Positions 3,588 to 41,473 of a stretch of DNA of 41,473 bases are shown here, piece by piece. The notes beneath the pieces are model-generated. The model worked only from the letters and a program-made list of their open reading frames with translations, had not been told where the DNA came from and did not search any database. Numbering within the stretch: position 1 is the first letter of the stretch; every line of letters starts with the position of its first letter. The translations under genes and the position numbers were made by a program. The stretch comes from Spirochaetota bacterium (GTDB taxonomy: Bacteria > Spirochaetota > Brachyspiria > Brachyspirales > JACRPF01). The DNA is taken from contig JBBTBY010000060.1 of the NCBI GenBank assembly GCA_038043445.1, positions 1 to 41,473 of the forward strand. Reading direction: 5' to 3'.

Positions 3588-4028
3588 TCAGAATCGCCGG
3601 AAAAGTTTCGCTATGACCGCGTGAATGGAATGCGGGAACGCATGCTCCTTCACGTACATGAAGAGGCATCGCCCGCTGACGAACGAAAGCTCATTGGTCT
3701 TGCAGTACGCCTCGGCCTCATCGCTCTCCGCACCCTGCTGAAGCCAGATATGCTTTATGCCTTTTTTCGCCGCTTCGGTGACGACGGCTAGCGTCTCCGC
3801 CGGCGGAACGACGACGACCGTTGCGGTGACCGCTTTCGGCAGTGCGGCTATGGATGGATAGCATTTATCGCCTTCTACCGTCCCTGCATTGGGGTTCACC
3901 GGATAGACGGTATATCCGTCGTTCTTAAGCTCCCGGTATATCGTATTGCTGAATTTCTTTCCGGAGCGTGAAACGCCGATGACGGCTATGTGCTTCTGGG
4001 CTATGAATTGCTTTATGGACTCTTTCAT
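3588..4028 (-). CDS. CoA-binding domain protein (YccU-like)
   Basis: 146 residues from ATG 4028. The start is chosen because AAGGAGAG (4036-4043, reverse strand) sits 7 nt upstream, and because a TTGACA box lies inside the longer open frame that reaches 4100. The protein is a single Rossmann-like CoA-binding domain: IAVIGVSRSGKKFSN near the N-terminus is the nucleotide loop, followed by YPVNPNAG and GIKHIWLQQGAESDEA, hallmarks of the YccU/CoA_binding_2 family. Family members bind CoA but their cellular role is poorly defined. It is the first gene of a two-gene unit with the FAD/Fe-S oxidase, with a 4-nt gap, which suggests a link to 2-hydroxyacid or acyl metabolism (inference). Confidence 0.88.
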   Translation of the reverse strand: MKESIKQFIAQKHIAVIGVSRSGKKFSNTIYRELKNDGYTVYPVNPNAGTVEGDKCYPSIAALPKAVTATVVVVPPAETLAVVTEAAKKGIKHIWLQQGAESDEAEAYCKTNELSFVSGRCLFMYVKEHAFPHSIHAVIAKLFRRF

Positions 4029-4249: not shown

Positions 4250-7200
4250 CTACTCGCTTAATTTTCCGAACAGCGACGGGTCTTTTTTCTCTCCTATCCC
4301 GCCGCCCCATTCGAGCCAGCCCAAGCGGCCGTTCCCGTCATTATCGTTGACCAATACCGAAAAACGCAGGGGCTTGCCGGTCTCAAAGACGAAGGGATAG
4401 AATTCCGTCCAGTCGATATGCACTTTATAGAGCGTGCGTCCATCCTGTCTGTCCACATCGGCGCGGGCGTGTTGCGCGGGATGTCCCGCCGCCGTCCAGT
4501 TCTGCGGAATATTCCCGCCGATGAATGAGGCAAGATGCTTCCATACGACAGGTCCGTCGGGAGTAAGCGCTACCGATATCTCGGTCTGGCTCCCGTCGGC
4601 ACCTGAGGCGTCCGCATCGAGGGCGAACTGCAGCGAGTCGCCGTTATACGCCTGCCCGGGCTTCTCGTTCTGCACATGGACGGTATCGCGCACCTCGACG
4701 AGAAGATCGAGCCCTGCAGTACCGCAATGAACGGCGAAACGCGCCTTAAATCCGTCCGGCCGCGCGGCACCGCGAATACCTTTGAACTGCCAGCCCTCCG
4801 TATTCCACTGCGTATCAGCGTTCGGCGAAACGATCGGCGACGGAGAAAGCGTTCCCCTGACCGCATTCGCATCGCTCGATGCTTTTTTCCGTTCGAGCGG
4901 ATAGAGAAGCGCCGTTGCCGGTACCGAAAGCGATCGAAGCTGAGACTCATCGCATTGTTCAATGAGATACGTCGAGCGTGTGTCGAGCACGCGGTCATTC
5001 CAGGGTTTTCCTTCCCAGCTGACGGCAGTTGATGATGCGGAGATCGTACGCGACAGCCGTGCATCGATCGTCTCCGGCGCTTTCCCTTCATTCCACACGA
5101 CGAGAAGAGGGCCGGCATCTGCTGACAAAAGCACCGCTTTCTGCGTGCCGAGATCGAATTCCTTCGCATACCGCACGCGGCCGCCGATGCGGTCAAGGAA
5201 ATTCCTCATCACGACGGCGGCGATACGCGGCTCCTGATCGGGCCTCTTGCGGAACAATCCGGAGCAGTGCGTAAAAATTCCGTTCGCACGGGCATACTGA
5301 AGCGATTCCATCTCATCAAGGTTCTGCATCTCAAAGATCACGATGCGCTCAACATTGTACTTAAGCTGCAGAAGAAGATCCGTCAGCATGCGGCGCCCAA
5401 GCTCTCGTTCATCGGGGATATTATCCGAGGCAGAGCTTCCGATCAGTATCGCATGCCACTCCGAAGAGCTCCATGGTTTCGGCGTGTGCCCCTGCTGTTT
5501 TTCGAGATCCCAATAAAGCCGCGTCTCCGGAAAGCTCCCGTGCATGGTAAGTGTATCGTAATAAGGGAATCCGCCTGCCTTGAGATATTCCTTATAGAAC
5601 GGGATATAGCCCCGACCTGCCTGTCCGCCGAGCCACACGTTCGCGTTCGGCATAACACCCTTGATCGTATCGTATCCGCTTTTCATGAGCGAAGCGAAAT
5701 TCTCCGTCGTGTCGCGCCAGTACACGCTCCCGGTCGGCAGATGCGGTTCATTCCAAAGCTGCCAGTCGCTCACGCGCTCCTTATACCGGGTCACGAGGTC
5801 GCGGAGGAATACCGTCCATGAAAATAATTCCCTGGGCATCCACGCCGAATAGCGCGGCACGCAGATATCGATGTCCGTGCGCTCCGGGTACGGCGATGCC
5901 CATCGCGGCGTTCCGTACACGGTCACGACATTGCTCTGAAAACCATAGCGGTCGGCAAGCACCATCGCGCGGTCCATGTAGCCCCATTGGTAGACACCCT
6001 TCTCAGGGTTCACGATATTCTCTTTGCGCCAATTATATCCCCAATGCGCCCACAGCCGCATGAAACCCATGCCGGTCATGCGCGCCATCCCCATACATTC
6101 GTCATCATCGAATTCAAGATTGAAGCCGAACTGCGGACGGTTTACATACGCGCGTTTTTTTACCACCGCAACGCCGAAGCGGTCCCGTCCGAAGCGCTTG
6201 ACGGAATCCTTGCCGCGCATCGTGAAGCTCCGCACCATCGGCCGTGTCTGTCCCGCCTCGGTATACGTGAATTCCATCTCATAAAAACCCGGCTGCGGTG
6301 CATGCCATACCCAGCCGTTCGCAATAAGTACATCGCGGCCGATGTTCACCTGTGCCGCAGTGTCCCCAGCCGATGTAAAAACCGTTCCCTGCACTGAGGT
6401 CAGTCCTGCCGGCGGATCTTCGCAGATGAAACGCACCGGCGCATCCTCGAACCAGGCGAAACGCGCTGCCGGGGCAAGGCGGAAATCGTGCCGCGACATG
6501 CCCGCCGCCGCTGTTACATCGTCGATGTACAGCGCACCCTTCGGATCTTTCTGCCCGCGCGTGCCGAAATTGATACGGAAATTGTCGGCATCCTTCGGCA
6601 TTTCGGCGCGCGGCACTTCGAGCGATATGGTCTGCCACGAGCCCTTGCTCACATCGGCAGGGAGATCGCTCCGCGATATGAAGGTGTTCCCTTTATTCCA
6701 GGTGATGAACATCCAGGGGAGCGCATTCATCTCCGCGGACATCTTTATTGCGGCGGACACATGAACGAATTTATATTCGCCGGGAAGCGATACCGCGGCG
6801 GAGGCATATCCGATATAGCCGATCTCCGAGGCATTGATGAAAAGCGACCGCGTACCGGAAGCAGCATCATCCGTTGTCACCCCGAGCTCTTTCGAATCGT
6901 TCTTCGCATTCCACCGCGTGAGCGACCATTGCGACGGCTGCGGATACGGCTTTCCATTCTCGACCGCTTCAAATCCGGAATTCGGCACCAGCGATGCAGC
7001 GGATGCTTTTTGAGCCGCTTCATAACGGACGGAGATATCATCATACATCACGGCGCCGCTGCCGTCGCTGTCCCCCTGCGCTGCAAGACAGAGCATGAAC
7101 GTGTCTGCATCCGCCGCGATCTCCGTACGGTCGATGAGGATACGTACCTCTTTCCATTGCCCGCGCGGGAATGCATCGAGTTCGGCGTTCTTCCTGCCGA

Positions 7201-7721: not shown

Positions 7722-9452
7722 ATGGAATACCGGTCAACGCTCTTTATTGTCGTGCTCGCGGCCTTGGTCGCCGGCGATACGCACCCCCTCGAGGTCGATA
7801 TCGACGAGTTCAAGAACATCAAGAAGGTAGAATTCGTGAATTACAAAGGGCCGAACAAGCGGGAAGACCCGCTCAATGAGATATTCGGCATCGGACGCAC
7901 GCTCGCAGAGGGCTCGAAGACGCGCTACCAGGAGCCGTTCCGCTATCTGATGAAATATTCCGTTACCCGCGCGGTGTCGAAGGATGAGCCGGAAAAACTG
8001 TCAGCCGATATCATATCGATAGACAAGGATGCGCAGGTCGATCATATCGATAATGTCAGGCGCATTACCGCCGGCTATCTAACCGAGATGTACGGATATA
8101 CCCATAAGCAGGCCTGGGCGCTCGCTGTGTTCATATCGTATTACAATGCCGTGCATCGCGGTGATATGGATTATTTCTCATCCGTGTACAAGAAAGGCGT
8201 CATGAAGAACATTGACGCAAGGAATGCGGGGATATCGACGAAATATTCCGACTGGCCGGGTGCGACGAAAATGCTCGTGCCGCTTACGGAAGCGGCGAAA
8301 CGCGGCGGTATAGACGCCATTGACCCGTTCGCGCTCACCGATGAAAAGACGAAGAAGGAGATACGCAAGGACGACCGGATAACGGAGCGAAAGGACATTG
8401 TCGATCTGAAGGATAAGGCAATTGCGAAGGATAAGGCGCAGCTCGATGCGAAGAAAGGCGATATAGAAAAGAAGAAAGGGGACATAGAGAAGGACAAGAA
8501 GGTTATTGATGATAAGAAAGCCGCCATCGATCGCGAGAAAGAGGACGCGGCGAAGAAGGAAGAAGCCCTCAGGAAGGAGAAGGAAGCGGCAGCACGGATA
8601 ACTGATACGGATAAACGCAAAGAGAAAGAGGATGAGATTGCCAGGAAGGAAAAAGAAGCCGCGGCGGAGAAGGAGAAGATCAGGAAAGACGAGAAAGAGC
8701 TTGGGGAGAAGGAAAAGGCCGTTGAGAAGAAGACCGAAGCGCTCAAGAAGGATGAGAAGGATGCCGCCGTAAAGGAAGATGCGCTCAAGAAGAAAGAGGA
8801 CGCCGTAAAAGAGGAGAAAAAGGAGATAGCGAAGGACGATACGTCCCCGGAAGGGCTTAAGAAGAAAGAAGCGGACCTTGCGAAGAAAGAGACGGAGCTC
8901 GATAAGCGAGAGGATTCGCTTCGCTCGAAAACGACGGATAAGAATATCTATGCGGACAAGCTCTATTATCTCAAGATACGCGAATATCTTGAGGGCGGGC
9001 ATTATAATAACGAGATGTTCCTGATAGACGCCGCCGAGCGGAAGGTGGTGCTCAAGTCTCCGGTGGCGACTATCTGCGGGAGCCGCTACGATGTGTTCTC
9101 CGACGGCATTGTCGTGATAACCCATGCGGGGAGCCATGCTTTCGCACATCACCTTACGCTCATCGACCGCGAGAAGCTGACCGTCAAGATAACCGGTACC
9201 GAGAACGTGTTCTGGCGGAGCTTTGTGGAGATACGGGAGGGTTATATATACGCGATCATCATAAAGGACGGGAAGTACTATCTCGGAAAATTCGATGGAA
9301 CACTCGCGCTTGCAGCGAGTTCCAGGGAGAATATCAGCGAAAACACGTTCCTGAGCTTTTTTGGGGACTACCTCTATATCAATAAAATGGACAGAACGGT
9401 CATTGTCCTCAACAAGAACGACCTTTCCCTCATCGATACGATAAAACCGTGA
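7722..9452 (+). CDS. P83/100-family spirochaetal coiled-coil protein
   Basis: 576 residues. A hydrophobic N-terminus (5-18) suggests export to the periplasm. Residues 21-205 form a conserved domain with EFVNYKGP, GIGRTLAE, KYSVTRAV, ISIDKDAQVDHIDNVRRI and YYNAVHRGDM, which I recognise from the Borrelia/Treponema P83/100 antigen family. Residues 205-408 are an uninterrupted K/E/D/A-rich coiled coil, consistent with a long rod. Residues 409-576 form a beta-rich C-terminal domain with blade-like repeats (MFLIDAAERKVV, LTLIDREKLTV, VIVLNKNDLSLID). The family is restricted, as far as known, to spirochaetes and its biochemical role is unclear; cell-envelope architecture is a guess. RBS GAGG is 7 nt before ATG 7722. 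The long open frame on the opposite strand is a by-product of the biased coiled-coil codons. Confidence 0.88.
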   Translation: MEYRSTLFIVVLAALVAGDTHPLEVDIDEFKNIKKVEFVNYKGPNKREDPLNEIFGIGRTLAEGSKTRYQEPFRYLMKYSVTRAVSKDEPEKLSADIISIDKDAQVDHIDNVRRITAGYLTEMYGYTHKQAWALAVFISYYNAVHRGDMDYFSSVYKKGVMKNIDARNAGISTKYSDWPGATKMLVPLTEAAKRGGIDAIDPFALTDEKTKKEIRKDDRITERKDIVDLKDKAIAKDKAQLDAKKGDIEKKKGDIEKDKKVIDDKKAAIDREKEDAAKKEEALRKEKEAAARITDTDKRKEKEDEIARKEKEAAAEKEKIRKDEKELGEKEKAVEKKTEALKKDEKDAAVKEDALKKKEDAVKEEKKEIAKDDTSPEGLKKKEADLAKKETELDKREDSLRSKTTDKNIYADKLYYLKIREYLEGGHYNNEMFLIDAAERKVVLKSPVATICGSRYDVFSDGIVVITHAGSHAFAHHLTLIDREKLTVKITGTENVFWRSFVEIREGYIYAIIIKDGKYYLGKFDGTLALAASSRENISENTFLSFFGDYLYINKMDRTVIVLNKNDLSLIDTIKP

Positions 9453-35000: not shown

Positions 35001-35996
35001 ATGGCAACGTGCATCGAAACGAAACGGATTAAGGGGGGCATAGACATGTCGTTATTAACACAATTCTATGCCGTCACCCACGCAGAAAGAAGCAGGGGAA
35101 CCGCCGAAGTATACCTGAGAGATGCGGAAGCGTTCATCGAATTCATCGGCGGGGAGGAGAAGCTTTACGGCGCTAAATCGGACGATGTTCTTGAGATCGT
35201 CTGCTCATTACAGGTAGGGTGGAATAAGTCGGGGGTATCCAACAAATACATTCGCCGACGCCTTAGCGGCATAAAGTCATTTCTCAGATTTGCACAACGC
35301 CGATGCGGTTTTTCCGCTGCAGCGATCTTTGAAGATGTTCGGCTTCCGCGAATCGAAGAAAAGATTCCCAACGTGTTGACGCCGGAACAATCCATACGCG
35401 TCGTTGAATGTGCCAAGTTTTACGGAACAACGATACACATGCTGTTCCGAATTATGTACGAATGCGGGCTACGCAATGCCGAAGCGCGCAGCCTCTGCAT
35501 ACAAAACGTCGACCTGATTAACGAGGCAATAATAGTTCGCCGCGGCAAGGGCGGAAAGGATCGTATTGTCCCAATCGTATGCATTTCGGAAATCGAAGCA
35601 TACCTTCTCTATCGCCGCACCATTAACCCGAACGGTGACGGCGATTTTCTTTTTCTTACAAAACGTGGAAAGAAATTTGTCGAGCAGGACGTCGCGTATT
35701 ACGCGAAGGCTATCCGGGTGAAAACCGGGGTTACGTTCACACCGCATACGCTTCGACATTCGTATGCCACACATTTGTATCAAAACGGTACGGATATCAG
35801 GGACTTGAAGGAACTGCTCGGGCATACAAACATTGCAACAACGGCTTTGTACACGCATACCTCATGTGATCGATTGCGTGAGAAAGTGAAGACGCTGCAT
35901 CCATATGCGATCGTCGGCAATAAAAGCACAGAAAGCAAGGATGCAGGTAAAGAAAACGACCAAGCCACGGAAGCCAATACAAAGAGGGGCAACTAG
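35001..35996 (+). CDS. Tyrosine recombinase/integrase, catalytically complete
   Basis: 331 residues. N-terminal SAM-like core-binding domain (about 16-112; TAEVYLRDAEAFIEFIGG, YIRRRLSGIKSFLRFAQRR) followed by the catalytic domain. All six catalytic positions are present: Arg158 (GLRNAEARSL), Lys183 (RGKGGKDRIVP), His249 and Arg252 (HTLRHSYATHL), His275 (LLGHTN) and Tyr284 (ALYTH). This is a XerC/D-like integrase that would catalyse insertion and excision of the element. AAAGGAG is 7 nt upstream. The basic-acidic tail of about 30 residues is not seen in minimal Xer proteins. It is followed at once by a second recombinase-like gene. Confidence 0.93.
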   Translation: MATCIETKRIKGGIDMSLLTQFYAVTHAERSRGTAEVYLRDAEAFIEFIGGEEKLYGAKSDDVLEIVCSLQVGWNKSGVSNKYIRRRLSGIKSFLRFAQRRCGFSAAAIFEDVRLPRIEEKIPNVLTPEQSIRVVECAKFYGTTIHMLFRIMYECGLRNAEARSLCIQNVDLINEAIIVRRGKGGKDRIVPIVCISEIEAYLLYRRTINPNGDGDFLFLTKRGKKFVEQDVAYYAKAIRVKTGVTFTPHTLRHSYATHLYQNGTDIRDLKELLGHTNIATTALYTHTSCDRLREKVKTLHPYAIVGNKSTESKDAGKENDQATEANTKRGN

Positions 35997-35997
35997 C

Positions 35998-36615
35998 ATG
36001 AGAAACAGAGTAAAAAGCAAAAACCGAAAAACGACACGTCCTGATCATTATTCCGAGCAGGAGGTCATGATCATACTGGATTGTGCGCGAAAAGAAAGTC
36101 CACTCGCGTATTCGATTACCCATTTCATGTATGCTGCCGGGCTTCGTCTGAGAGAAATATGCAATCTCAAGGTTGGTGAGATCGATTTGGGAAAGGAGGT
36201 CGTTTATGTTCATGATGATTGCACTCTGCGCTCCCGGGTAGTGCCGCTTCTCATCCCATCGGTGAGCAGGGACTATCTTGAAAGTCATTCGGCGAGACGG
36301 GGCAAGGCTGATCGATTTTTTGTTACAGAAAATATGAAAGCGATAACGAAAAACACCGTTCGTTCCCTCTTCAAGTCGGTTGGAAAGAAGGCAGGAATAC
36401 AAATCAGCAGCCACAAACTGCGGCGCAGCGTCGCCATACATTTGTACGATCATGGCGCTCAGATTGAGCGCATCAGAGCCATCCTTGGCTGCAATCAGTC
36501 GCGATTGATTCAATGGAGCCTTCCGCTTTCGGTTGATCAATTACGAAACTGCATGAATGAATACCATCCGCTCGCGATAGCACACCGCCTGGGCGTGAAT
36601 GGGCAAATGAAATGA
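35998..36615 (+). CDS. Degenerate tyrosine recombinase (catalytic domain only, nucleophile lost)
   Basis: 205 residues from ATG 35998 (GAGGGG about 9 nt upstream, 2 nt after the preceding stop); the frame upstream overlaps the integrase and is not needed. It aligns with the catalytic half of the neighbour: Arg50 (AAGLRLREICNL) and His139-x-x-Arg142 (SHKLRRSVAIHL) are kept. But the GKG lysine is replaced by DCT (about 74-76), the second His by Cys165 (ILGCNQ), and the nucleophilic Tyr by Ser174 or Trp173. The core-binding domain is missing. The frame is otherwise intact and well conserved in secondary structure, so this may be a functional non-catalytic partner or accessory factor rather than simple decay. 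Confidence 0.85.
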   Translation: MRNRVKSKNRKTTRPDHYSEQEVMIILDCARKESPLAYSITHFMYAAGLRLREICNLKVGEIDLGKEVVYVHDDCTLRSRVVPLLIPSVSRDYLESHSARRGKADRFFVTENMKAITKNTVRSLFKSVGKKAGIQISSHKLRRSVAIHLYDHGAQIERIRAILGCNQSRLIQWSLPLSVDQLRNCMNEYHPLAIAHRLGVNGQMK

Positions 36616-37490: not shown

Positions 37491-37898
37491 ATGAGCGCAT
37501 ACATTGTGAACGATAGCGTTATCAACCGCATCGCAGCACTATTGAGCGATGATGAATTTGGACCCGAAAGAATAATTTCAGATTCGATCAAGAAGCTTGG
37601 ATATTCCGCGTTCGATCATCCTGAACAATTAGCGCGGCACATGCACAACCTTAATCGATTCGCCATGAATGAACGATACGGCAGAAAGTTGCCGTATACG
37701 CATCGATATAAAGCGGTACTGGCACGTGATACATATCAAATACTTAAAGACATCCAATGCTTCATGTATCAGTGCAGCGAAGGCAGGGCTACGAAAACGC
37801 GCTTGTTCAAAGCGTTTGAAAATGTCGAGAACGATCTTGCACATGAATTAGTCCGGATGACGGAAGAATATAAGAATGCAAAATGGGACAAGGAGTAA
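37491..37898 (+). CDS. Hypothetical element protein
   Basis: 135 residues from ATG 37491; GGAGG is 6 nt upstream. All-helical, charged soluble protein (SVINRIAALLSDDEFGPERIISDSIKKLG, LKDIQCFMYQCSEGRATKTRLFKAFENVENDLAHELVRM). No motif recognised; the position just before the SSB genes suggests an early-region role. Confidence 0.65.
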   Translation: MSAYIVNDSVINRIAALLSDDEFGPERIISDSIKKLGYSAFDHPEQLARHMHNLNRFAMNERYGRKLPYTHRYKAVLARDTYQILKDIQCFMYQCSEGRATKTRLFKAFENVENDLAHELVRMTEEYKNAKWDKE

Positions 37899-37905
37899 TT
37901 TACAG

Positions 37906-38259
37906 ATGAATGCTCAAACAAACATTATTGTTATTGAAGGGCGACTTACATCGAAACCGCTATTAAAGCGAACAAAGAGCGGTAAATCCGTGTGCAGGTT
38001 CACGATCTCCAACAATCGATACTACTTCCAAAATAAAAATATCATCGATGATGTGAGCTTCTTCAAGATCGCGGCATGGGGCGCGCTCGCCGAGCGATCG
38101 GCAGAAACACTATCCAAAGGCTCGCTTGTCCTCGTAAGCGGAACACTTTCTTCAAAGTCAATTGCCGGCTCAAATGAACAGCGCGACGATGTGAAGATAA
38201 CCGCAGCGAATATCAAATTCCTGTCAAGGAGAAATGCAACAAGCCAACCTTGCAACTGA
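37906..38259 (+). CDS. Single-stranded DNA-binding protein without acidic C-terminal tip
   Basis: 117 residues from ATG 37906. OB-fold signature: NIIVIEGRLTSKPLLKRTKSGKSVCRFTIS, then VSFFKIAAWGALAERSAETLSKGSLVLVSGTL, as in bacterial/phage SSBs (the WGxLAE strand and GSLVLVSG). It ends in SRRNATSQPCN, i.e. without the acidic DDDxPF tip that recruits partner proteins. A second SSB with the tip lies 1 kb downstream. Likely roles: ssDNA coating during recombination. Confidence 0.85.
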   Translation: MNAQTNIIVIEGRLTSKPLLKRTKSGKSVCRFTISNNRYYFQNKNIIDDVSFFKIAAWGALAERSAETLSKGSLVLVSGTLSSKSIAGSNEQRDDVKITAANIKFLSRRNATSQPCN

Positions 38260-38292
38260 AAACAGAACATGAAAAGAATAAGGAGGACATGG

Positions 38293-39279
38293 ATGCAATT
38301 TAAGAGAGCAATTAAAAGCTTCGTTAAACTCTTGTGCGCAATTTTCGGCACGTCGGGTGCGGGGAAATCGTACACAATGCTTCGTATCGCCACCGGCATA
38401 GGAGGCAGGATTGCGGCTATCGATACCGAACACGGGTCGTTATCAAAGTACGCTGACCGCTTCGTATTCGATGTGCTCGATCTTATCGACACCTCAATCG
38501 ATTCATATATCGAGGCGATAAACGAGGCGGCACGGGCCGGATACGACATTCTCATTATCGATTCGCTTTCGCATGCATGGCAGATACTTCTTGAGAAAGT
38601 TAATAAAATCGCAAATGTGAAATACAAGGGAAATACCTTCGCGGCATGGAGCGAAGGTACTCCTGAACAACGGAAGTTCATCAAAGCGATAGTAAGTTTC
38701 CCCGGACATGTGCTTGTCACAATTCGCTCAAAAACTGAATGGAGCATCGAGGATGCGGGTAACGGGAAGAAAGCGCCTGTACGGGTAGGACTTGCGCCTG
38801 AGCAGGGAAAAGGCATCGAATACGAATTCGACCTCCTGCTTGAAATATCTCCCGACCATATTTGCAGGGTGATAAAAGATCGCACCGGAAAATATCAAGA
38901 CAAGATGATCGAAAAGCCGGGCGAAGATTTCGGTCGTGAATTGAAAGCATGGCTTTCCGAGGGCGCACTTCCGCCTGAACCCAATTATGAAATTGCCCCC
39001 ATCGGCAAGAATGCCGGGAAATCATGGTTTGACCATACCGAGGAAGCGCTTCTCAAAGCGAAAGAATATTACATCGCCCGCCCGAATGATCGGACCGCAT
39101 CTGGATACCTTCTTGAGATTGAGCGGGCACTTTCCGTTGGCAAGGTGAATCATCCGGCAACGCTTTCGGATACGGTTATCACTATTTCCGGCGGCCCTGA
39201 ATCGAAACCGGAGATAGCACAAAAGCAAACGGCCAAGTCGGTCATTATTTATGGAAATACGCCAAGGAGGAATAACTGA
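38293..39279 (+). CDS. Sak4-type RecA-like ATPase (AAA_24)
   Basis: 328 residues from ATG 38293: AAGGAGG lies 6 nt upstream, whereas ATG 38269 would place the RBS inside the gene. The N-terminus MQFKRAIKSF..KLLCAIFGTSGAGKS is the typical start of phage Sak4/RadA-like ATPases. Walker A is GTSGAGKS (19-26), Walker B DILIIDS (85-91), and TIRSKTEW a sensor-like strand. The C-terminal third is less conserved. Sak4 proteins drive single-strand annealing or recombination together with the phage SSB. Flanked by two ssb genes, and its stop overlaps the next start by one base. Confidence 0.88.
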   Translation: MQFKRAIKSFVKLLCAIFGTSGAGKSYTMLRIATGIGGRIAAIDTEHGSLSKYADRFVFDVLDLIDTSIDSYIEAINEAARAGYDILIIDSLSHAWQILLEKVNKIANVKYKGNTFAAWSEGTPEQRKFIKAIVSFPGHVLVTIRSKTEWSIEDAGNGKKAPVRVGLAPEQGKGIEYEFDLLLEISPDHICRVIKDRTGKYQDKMIEKPGEDFGRELKAWLSEGALPPEPNYEIAPIGKNAGKSWFDHTEEALLKAKEYYIARPNDRTASGYLLEIERALSVGKVNHPATLSDTVITISGGPESKPEIAQKQTAKSVIIYGNTPRRNN

Positions 39280-39779
39280 TGGCAAATGATACGAATGTGG
39301 TGATTATGACTGGCCGCCCGACACGGCAGGCTGAACTCCAAACCTCAAAAAACGGGAGATCGTTCTGCAAATTCGCGCTCGCAGTGAATCTGTACAACGG
39401 TGTCGAAACATCGGCTCATTACTTTAACTGGATTGCCTGGGGAAAGACGGCGGAATATTTTACGAGCTTCATCAACAAGGGCGACCTTGTGATCGTTGAA
39501 GGTGAAGCGCGGCAGAATATCTGGACGGATAAGGAGGGTGTGACGCATTATGAAGTCGAGTTCTTCGCAAGCAATGTGAAACTCATGCGCCGAAAAGCCG
39601 TTGTCGATAGCCTTCAACCGGCCGTTAATGAGAAGTCACCGGTGCTTGCATCATCAGCGGCAAATGGTAACGGCCACGATCAATCACATAGCGAGGCATC
39701 GCTGCCGCTCGATGAAAAACAGCCCGAATCAAATTACGTTCTCGATGACGGATACAACGACGACGAAGTGCCGTTTTAA
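39279..39779 (+). CDS. ssb: Single-stranded DNA-binding protein with DDEVPF tip
   Basis: 166 residues. N-terminal OB fold (VVIMTGRPTRQAELQTSKNGRSFCKFALAV, HYFNWIAWGKTAEYFTSFINKGDLVIVEG, ARQNIWTDKEGVTHYEVEFFASNVKLM), a low-complexity linker, and the canonical acidic C-terminal tip DDGYNDDEVPF. This form should recruit partner enzymes such as primases or nucleases. The ATG overlaps the preceding TGA, so it is translationally coupled to the ATPase gene. Confidence 0.93.
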   Translation: MANDTNVVIMTGRPTRQAELQTSKNGRSFCKFALAVNLYNGVETSAHYFNWIAWGKTAEYFTSFINKGDLVIVEGEARQNIWTDKEGVTHYEVEFFASNVKLMRRKAVVDSLQPAVNEKSPVLASSAANGNGHDQSHSEASLPLDEKQPESNYVLDDGYNDDEVPF

Positions 39780-39799: not shown

Positions 39800-40723
39800 A
39801 TGCAGTACACAAACATCAACAATCTCCCCGGAATTCTTGTCCGCGCACTTATGGCTGATGGGTATTCAAAGAACTCAAAATACAGCATGACACAGCTCAT
39901 AAAGAGCCCGCAGTCCGTCGTGCTCGAACAACGCCATCGCAATGAGATCACAACCGATGTGTCGGAAAGCCTCTGGCGATTCCTCGGTAGCGCCGTTCAC
40001 GACTTCCTCCAGAAAGGCGAGGGCGCATCGGATATCACCGAGGAACGCCTCATGTATCTGACGCCCTCGGGGATATCCGTTTCCGGCCAATTCGATTGCT
40101 TCGACGGCGAGGAAGGCATTCTATACGACTTCAAGGTTACAAGCGTGTATCGGGTTATGCATGCAGATTTCGAAGACTTCCGGACGCAGCTCCTTGCGTA
40201 TGCCTGGCTCCTTAATCGCATCGGATTTGAAGTTAAGCATATTAGAAACATTCTCATCCTTCGCGACTGGAACAATTCGCATTCAGCAACCGCTCAATGC
40301 CCGCTGCTTGTTCTTGACCACGATCTCGGCACCACGATCGAAGGACTTCCGATATCCGACTGGATAAATACCAAGGTCGAAGCGATAGAACGGGCCGCCG
40401 GTCTTCCCAACGAGGAACTCCCCGAATGCAGTGAGAAGTTTCGCTGGGCGCAAGCGGATGAATACAAAGTGTATTGGAACGAATCGACGGCAAAGACACT
40501 TCGGTCGATGAAGAACTTCACCGATGGCACCGAAGCCGTCGAATACGCACGGTATATGGAGCGTGAGTCGAAAGGCAAGAAAACGTTCCGTGTGGATCTC
40601 GTAGAAGGCAATAAATTCAAGCGCTGCGAATACTGCAAGGCCGCTCCGTTCTGCGCCCAGTACCGCCCGGCACGTGAAGCACGCATGATGCATACAGAGG
40701 CTCAATCGGGAGTAGTCGGATGA
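39800..40723 (+). CDS. PD-(D/E)XK nuclease, RecB/Cas4-like
   Basis: 307 residues; AAAGGA is 7 nt before ATG 39800. The nuclease core reads: His67 in FLGSAVHDFL, Asp99 in SGQFDCFD, the Asp110-x-Lys112 of ILYDFKVTS, and Gln130-xxx-Tyr134 in RTQLLAYAWL, exactly the RecB-type motif set. A C-terminal Cys group (CEYCKAAPFC) resembles part of the Cas4/AddB iron-sulfur site, but the N-terminal Cys is not obvious, so cluster binding is uncertain. It likely processes DNA ends for the Sak4/SSB recombination system. The stop overlaps the next start (ATGA). Confidence 0.9.
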   Translation: MQYTNINNLPGILVRALMADGYSKNSKYSMTQLIKSPQSVVLEQRHRNEITTDVSESLWRFLGSAVHDFLQKGEGASDITEERLMYLTPSGISVSGQFDCFDGEEGILYDFKVTSVYRVMHADFEDFRTQLLAYAWLLNRIGFEVKHIRNILILRDWNNSHSATAQCPLLVLDHDLGTTIEGLPISDWINTKVEAIERAAGLPNEELPECSEKFRWAQADEYKVYWNESTAKTLRSMKNFTDGTEAVEYARYMERESKGKKTFRVDLVEGNKFKRCEYCKAAPFCAQYRPAREARMMHTEAQSGVVG

Positions 40724-41473
40724 AATACTCGATATTTATTAACCAGAAAGCGATTGCAACGCACTTTGAGGCTGGAAAACTCGACCTTGTGGACATGGCG
40801 ATCTTCGACTATAGCCGCGATATCATCACATCCCCGAACGCAAAGCTCCTACGGATCATGCATGATGGCAAACCATATACATGGATCGATTACAAGCATC
40901 TGATCGATTGCATGCCGCTGCTGGGTATAAAGACGAACGATGTAATACGGCGACGCATGAACACGCTCGTTACGGAGAAACTCCTCTGCCGGCATATCGT
41001 CAGGTCAATGGCGTATTTCACGCTCGGCGAAAAGGCTGATCTTCTTTACTTTGATACAGACACAACGGAAACTCCCCCCGCCCCGGCACCAGAGAATACG
41101 CCTCAGAAGCAAAAGGAAGCGCAAGACGAGGTTCCAGAAGTCCAACCCGAGGAAACACATCAGCTCGATCTTAGCGCTTCAAATGAGGCCGAAAACGATG
41201 CGTATACGGGCAATGAGGACGCATCTGAGAGCGATACCCTGCCCAACCCAGAAGTTGAGCCCAACTTTTCAGATGGGGTAGCCCAACCAAAAAGTGGGGC
41301 ACTGCCCAACTTTAAAGATGGGCTGAGCCCAACTGAAAAGAGGGGCTATTATAATACTAACATTAACCAATCAGATCAGGAATTTAAAATTAGGGGGAAA
41401 GAGGACACGCCCCCACACCCCAGCCCCCCTCAAATATCAGCCCTTGAGATCGTATTTTACAAACTCTGGGAGC
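40720..41473 (+). CDS. Replication-initiator-like protein, lambda O-like, with origin inside the gene (3' end outside window)
   Basis: At least 251 residues, open to the window end; the start overlaps the nuclease stop (ATGA). Residues 1-115 are a compact mixed domain with helices that could form a winged helix (AIFDYSRDIITSPNAKLLRIM, VIRRRMNTLVTEKLLCRHIV). Residues 118-170 are a Pro/Glu/Gln-rich linker. Residues 173-210 are encoded by GCCCAAC repeats and are rich in PN/QP. This order, DNA-binding domain, then linker containing repeats, then more sequence, parallels lambda O, in which the origin lies inside the gene. The product identity is inferred; sequence homology to O is not evident by eye. 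Confidence 0.6.
   Translation, partial: MKYSIFINQKAIATHFEAGKLDLVDMAIFDYSRDIITSPNAKLLRIMHDGKPYTWIDYKHLIDCMPLLGIKTNDVIRRRMNTLVTEKLLCRHIVRSMAYFTLGEKADLLYFDTDTTETPPAPAPENTPQKQKEAQDEVPEVQPEETHQLDLSASNEAENDAYTGNEDASESDTLPNPEVEPNFSDGVAQPKSGALPNFKDGLSPTEKRGYYNTNINQSDQEFKIRGKEDTPPHPSPPQISALEIVFYKLWE
41241..41392. other. Putative replication origin: five GCCCAAC iterons followed by an A+T-rich stretch
   Basis: GCCCAAC occurs at 41241, 41259, 41281, 41304 and 41327, with the last four spaced 22-23 bp (about two helical turns). Each of those four opens a 20-bp imperfect palindrome ending GGGG or GGGC; the copy at 41304-41323, GCCCAACTTTAAAGATGGGC, pairs in all but one position per arm. An A+T-rich run follows at once (41347-41392, TATTATAATACTAACATTAA...). 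This is the layout of phage lambda ori. Confidence 0.65.

Follow-up and report, generated by a model that had tools for sequence, protein, structure and literature searches.

In bacteriophage lambda, the replication origin occupies a central position in the initiator gene and is built from imperfect palindromic units, and the mechanism of initiation is established (PMC5043065, PMC7466680). The SPP1 origin oriL is likewise located inside an initiator gene, that of gp38, and comprises direct repeats together with an A+T-rich unwinding element; the phage has a dedicated helicase loader, gp39 (PMC6316719). Plasmid pSK41 encodes a Rep protein which binds four Rep boxes placed centrally within the rep gene, the matching region of the protein being a dispensable linker, and the chimaeric plasmid pPR9, with its exchange of domain plus origin, provides a precedent for a swap (PMC5703833). 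A lambda-like putative origin has also been proposed in a Phg_2220_C gene of Francisella phage KIRK (PMC7924643). The layout itself is therefore already known, as lambda, SPP1 and RepA_N plasmids all have nested origins; more novel, as far as the open-access literature goes, are the breadth of the family described below and the evidence for joint transfer of nested origins and their DNA-binding domains.

The window analysed here (the whole stretch of DNA, 41,473 bases) contains an integrated element which starts about 35 kb into it. Its last gene, on the plus strand (40720..41473; 251 codons seen), is initiator-like and runs past the contig end; judged from its sequence, 41241-41396 very likely serves this phage-like element as its replication origin and sits in the part of the initiator gene that codes for the linker. 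Close to where the element starts, two tyrosine recombinase genes lie next to each other and overlap (35001..36615, the second from 35905; PF00589, E 6e-36 and 7e-23). They are followed, also on the plus strand, by genes for a single-strand binding protein (SSB; 37876..38259; PF00436, E 2e-22), a Sak4-like AAA_24 ATPase (38269..39279; PF13479, E 4e-27; phrog_1366, E 3e-75; the Sak4-like phrog_124, E 2e-11), a second SSB (39279..39779; PF00436, E 8e-21) and a PD-(D/E)XK exonuclease (39800..40723; phrog_2139), the last of which overlaps the start of the initiator gene by 4 bp. The element had been called spirochaetal beforehand, and rightly so, since genomes of the same phylum carry family genes identical to Spirochaetota and Spirochaetia ones and a gene for a Borrelia_P83-family protein lies in the left flank; the host is thus a spirochaete. 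The gene of this Borrelia P83/100-family protein (7722-9452; PF05262, E 8e-69) is Glu/Lys-rich in its middle, with a strong purine skew. Anywhere in the 5.13-Mb draft genome, GpA terminase and Phage_portal had zero matches; in the same draft, the contig end of the window had no second match elsewhere and contig starts gave no strong, linkable match to a phage-type DnaC-like loader. A plasmid collection held no relative of the initiator-like gene. The element is mobile and probably viral.

The heptamer GCCCAAC occurs at 41241, 41259, 41281, 41304 and 41327, that is, five times within 93 bp (41241-41333) at spacings of 18, 22, 23 and 23 bp, with zero further copies on either strand of the window. 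Every copy makes up the left arm of an imperfect palindrome of 20 bp, with the symmetric consensus GCCCAACTTnnAAGTTGGGC. On the plus strand, the units read GCCCAACCCAGAAGTTGAGC (41241..41260, overlapping its neighbour by 2 bp), GCCCAACTTTTCAGATGGGG (41259..41278), GCCCAACCAAAAAGTGGGGC (41281..41300), GCCCAACTTTAAAGATGGGC (41304..41323) and GCCCAACTGAAAAGAGGGGC (41327..41346), and 12, 12, 12, 18 and 12 of their 20 positions, respectively, agree with the reverse complement. The five units, the palindromic character and the 22-23-bp period of units 2-5 had all been pointed out in the preliminary description and hold. A period of 22-23 bp does not keep to codon triplets, and the unit therefore falls in all three reading frames; the codon phase of its G is 2, 2, 0, 2 and 1, and the encoded residues are PN, PN, AQP, PN and SPT. 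No 7-mer was found five times when the gene was shuffled, 2000 times by synonymous codons and 2000 times by codon order (maximum 4 in both), and 3′ of the region encoding the N-terminal (N) domain 15 repeated 8-mers were observed where synonymous shuffling leads one to expect 3.9 (a count reached in 0 of 1000 shuffles); in the region encoding the N domain itself, repeated 8-mers were not significantly in excess of synonymous shuffles. The three codon frames and the excess over the synonymous null make the repeat a property of the DNA, not a protein repeat. Directly 3′ of the last unit, 50 bp with 74% A+T (41347..41396), compared with 51% for the gene and 45% for the whole window, constitute a candidate unwinding element and correspond to the strongly A+T-rich stretch reported earlier; only 0.04% of the 50-mers of the window are equally A+T-rich or more. 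The linker-coding part with the candidate origin is placed at 41056..41396 (plus strand), with a tentative right limit; the label "linker" is carried over from the relatives, in which a low-complexity linker follows the N domain, because the window gene is cut off by the end of the contig and its C-terminal part is unseen.

Scans of Pfam, NCBIfam and PHROG returned no meaningful match for the window protein, and tblastn found Elizabethkingia phage TCUEAP2 (E 4e-11) and, weakly, RepO genes of Campylobacter phages. An AlphaFold2 model built with 29 sequences predicts a winged-helix DNA-binding domain for amino acids 1-112, the N domain (40720..41055, plus strand; pLDDT 90.4, pTM 0.83); in a Foldseek comparison with viral models, its neighbours are replisome organizers and replication initiators. 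The top-ranked solved structures, all weak matches, are 4pql, 5kbj and 4pt7 (E 4e-3 to 4e-2, TM ~0.6); the structure table labels them only "initiator", "DNA binding protein" or "Rep-DNA complex", and they are N-terminal domains of the staphylococcal RepA_N proteins. Winged helices are a common fold, and with E 4e-3 and TM ~0.6 the N domain resembles RepA_N weakly; the RepA_N model (PF06970) is absent from the Pfam matches of 24 family members at E 0.01, and the family profile, when compared with the PDB by sequence, matches weak winged-helix regulators only. Of the lambda O-like fold for which a check had been suggested, a confident winged helix with initiator-like neighbours was recovered, but the nearest solved fold is RepA_N, weakly matched, and not lambda O. 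There was no match between the family profile and lambda O in hhalign, in line with the earlier remark that similarity to lambda is not evident in sequence, nor between lambda O and the PDB by sequence; two relatives (L005, 4e-15; L026, 2e-10) share with lambda O (1.7e-35) the profile phrog_678, "replication initiation O-like". As modelled, the encoded N domain is a DNA-binding domain of initiator type with a predicted winged helix, and the window protein probably works like an O protein, by which O-type descent is not implied.

Profile searches added some 30 relatives, from IMG/VR contigs and from genomes of Spirochaetota, WOR-3, Thiotrichales, Flavobacteriales, Prevotella and Eubacterium, and relatives of the window protein match PHROG replication-initiation profiles; some genes from same-phylum genomes are identical to genes of Spirochaetota and Spirochaetia (L022 = L039, L021 = L040). 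Repeated 8-mers, direct or reverse complement, were compared with synonymous-codon shuffles at a cut-off of P < 0.01: 3′ of the N domain the null was exceeded in 23 of 32 linker-bearing family genes (window included), and in the N-domain control in one of 34 genes. By this test, L008, L024, L030, L033-L035 and L038 have no significant repeat excess. Nearly every relative has a unit of its own, such as CCCCTAAACGAAAGTTTAGGGG, TTGGGACAAAATGTCCCAA or CGTTAACCGTGGCTAACG; as a rule these units are palindromic and recur every 20-24 bp, often in mixed frames; in nearly all, the 50 bp after the units are richer in A+T than the gene. Lambda O, put through the same analysis, yields spacings of 20, 24 and 23, phases 0, 2, 2 and 1, and 72% A+T after the last iteron. 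The proposed lambda ori layout, with iterons and an unwinding-type region inside an initiator-like gene, therefore recurs in relatives, the repeats being found in the same place despite codon freedom; so far as such patterns identify it, the nested layout is not rare but present in most relatives. When the window iterons were compared with the relatives' linkers, only L003 (same phylum) came out above chance (13/16, P ~0.01, uncorrected, in 30-odd comparisons), and no match is claimed. A DnaC-like helicase loader is encoded by the next gene after the initiator in L026 (same phylum), L018 and L034, which we count in favour of an origin; the window contig ends before that position. L040 is a phage or prophage, as a GpA terminase is encoded shortly downstream.

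The A+T-rich stretch of L026 (from ~1976) contains AAGACTCTTCTACTAGA twice, in two reading frames, and similar A/T-rich repeats (ACTCTTCTA, ATACAACCATCAAG) lie 3′ of the iterons in L003, L022, L041, L016 and L017; possibly, they are a second, unwinding-specific repeat.

A scan with L009 revealed phage contigs whose C-terminal modules (C-modules) are close to that of L009 but whose N domains differ; they were grouped by N domain into types A, A2, B, C, D and E. Among types A-D the C-modules reach 95-99% identity with N domains averaging 13-22%, and between A2 and E the C-modules are up to 98% alike with N domains 24% identical; the N domains of all types are divergent rather than proven unrelated, since all match PHROG replication-initiation profiles. 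The chimaeric initiator genes (L010/L056/L057, L050/L059, L009/L053, L011/L045) combine near-identical C-modules with divergent N domains and iterons of their own; in L010 and L056, for example, the C-modules are 98% identical in DNA and the N domains 22% identical. Pairwise DNA alignments break off close to the start codon or farther 5′ and restart just 3′ of the A+T-rich stretch; homology stops at 4016 and resumes at 4467 for L010/L056, at 3997 and 4450 for L010/L057, and at 3609 and 4507 for L011/L045. A conserved protein with freely varying units was the case thought to speak against an origin, and the test of it came out in favour of one, because the iterons follow the N domain: they match at 14.3-16 of 16 positions inside one N-domain type, at 12-13 of 16 between A and A2, a pair whose N domains are 53% identical but whose C-modules are only 46% identical, and at 9.0-10.8 of 16 between other types, sharers of a C-module included, where the shuffled null is 9.8. 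Iteron identity tracks the DNA-binding domain, not the C-module, and domain, iterons and A+T-rich stretch move as one unit between phages. In the type D chimaeras (L057, L058, L066-L068), which share the C-module, linker iterons are weak or absent and the origin may be elsewhere. For the C-terminal module of the Bacteroidetes-type relatives the model is modest (pLDDT 75) and no PDB fold was matched.

The case for an origin at 41241-41396 is made by the units, which stand in three phases and beyond the nulls, by the A+T-rich stretch, the predicted winged helix and the replication and recombination genes around them; by the 23 of 32 genes which repeat the layout and by proven lambda O, which gives the same picture; and by iterons that track the DNA-binding domain, with homology breaks that bracket domain, iterons and A+T-rich stretch. 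If, instead, the repeats were a low-complexity linker at the level of the protein, their likeness in DNA would be a by-product of tandem duplication; the linker is low-complexity, and the units of L016, L017 and L029 consist of 21- or 33-bp tandem copies that keep the frame, with the protein repeated too, but for the window the frame shifts refute this, as one unit encodes different residues in three frames, and repeats beyond the synonymous null together with mixed phases in many relatives and in lambda O make it most improbable. To a structured mRNA with hairpins in the transcript we likewise give very little credence: the region does fold as RNA better than shuffles (z -5.6), but lambda ori, a proven DNA site, folds more strongly (z -8.7), and as that palindromic array gives the same signal, no RNA role is needed to account for it; further, the region has no Rfam match, and the iterons of relatives track the DNA-binding domain.

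It is also conceivable, albeit unlikely, that the units are operators for regulation of their own operon, or copy-number or incompatibility sites, rather than an origin. Plasmid iterons often serve control as well, and a winged-helix protein sitting on repeats in its own gene could be a roadblock or a titrator; however, mid-gene is not a promoter position, and the phased array, the A+T-rich stretch and the replication genes are more in keeping with an origin. In lambda, pSK41 and SPP1, the proven examples of a nested layout, the site is an origin (PMC5043065, PMC5703833, PMC6316719), and such control would be compatible with an origin, not exclusive of it.

From the observed anatomy of the window we infer binding, melting, helicase loading and origin activity as follows. 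The winged-helix N domain would bind the iterons at 22-23 bp, about two helical turns, probably as dimers since the iterons are palindromic; the complex of initiator and iterons would help to melt the A+T-rich stretch next to it. The replicative helicase would then be delivered by the C-terminal part (unseen) together with a helicase loader. A scheme of melting and helicase recruitment is established for lambda (PMC5043065, PMC7466680) and SPP1 (PMC6316719). As origin and DNA-binding domain would form one contiguous block, recombination would move both and keep them matched. The nested origin would thereby make DNA-binding domain, cognate origin and unwinding stretch one exchangeable specificity cassette, which phages of distant bacterial groups would repeatedly swap in front of a conserved C-module, escaping interference among co-resident relatives with the match of initiator and origin kept, and the window would be the spirochaetal member of a largely undescribed family; this proposal could as well fail as hold, the exchange being seen in Bacteroidetes-type phage contigs only and escape from interference being the purpose we infer. 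For the spirochaetal mobile element, a likely replication origin is now located, and its relatives supply a sequence rule, namely palindromic repeats in the linker-coding part of the initiator gene, in several frames and beyond the synonymous null, by which origins could be located in many phages not yet characterised. With C-modules whose DNA is up to 98% identical, N domains at about 20% identity and iterons of their own, the natural chimaeras make the reason for nesting testable.

Compared with the described systems, the window has the features of the class formed by lambda ori/O, pSK41 and SPP1 oriL, that is, putative initiator-binding-type repeats within the gene and, adjoining them, an A+T-rich stretch of unwinding type. 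RepA_N initiators such as pSK41 Rep provide the closest solved fold of the N domain, weakly matched; however, of 24 family members none hit the Pfam model of RepA_N at E 0.01, and the context of the window is phage-like, not plasmid. TCUEAP2 and PC22 (RepO) encode detectable homologues of the N domain (that of PC22 weak) with linkers that carry iterons and an A+T-rich stretch; candidate in-gene origins are found at L005:4001-4867 (Campylobacter phage PC22 repO) and L004:4001-4927 (TCUEAP2 homologue), neither record has an origin annotated, and the iterons, like those of KIRK, differ from those of the window. SPP1 oriL/gp38 shares with the window repeats and an A+T-rich stretch within the initiator gene, a likeness of layout. 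With respect to lambda, the unit sequence differs, the direct comparison with the O profile is negative and the link to O consists in phrog_678 only, through L005 and L026; the C-terminal part and a P-like partner lie outside the seen part of the window, and "lambda-like" means layout, not demonstrated descent. As in phage lambda and lambdoid phages, the candidate origin is mid-gene, its units stand in mixed frames with an A+T-rich stretch straight after, and they are similar in kind to the ~19-bp imperfect palindromes that lambda has at 20-24-bp spacing.
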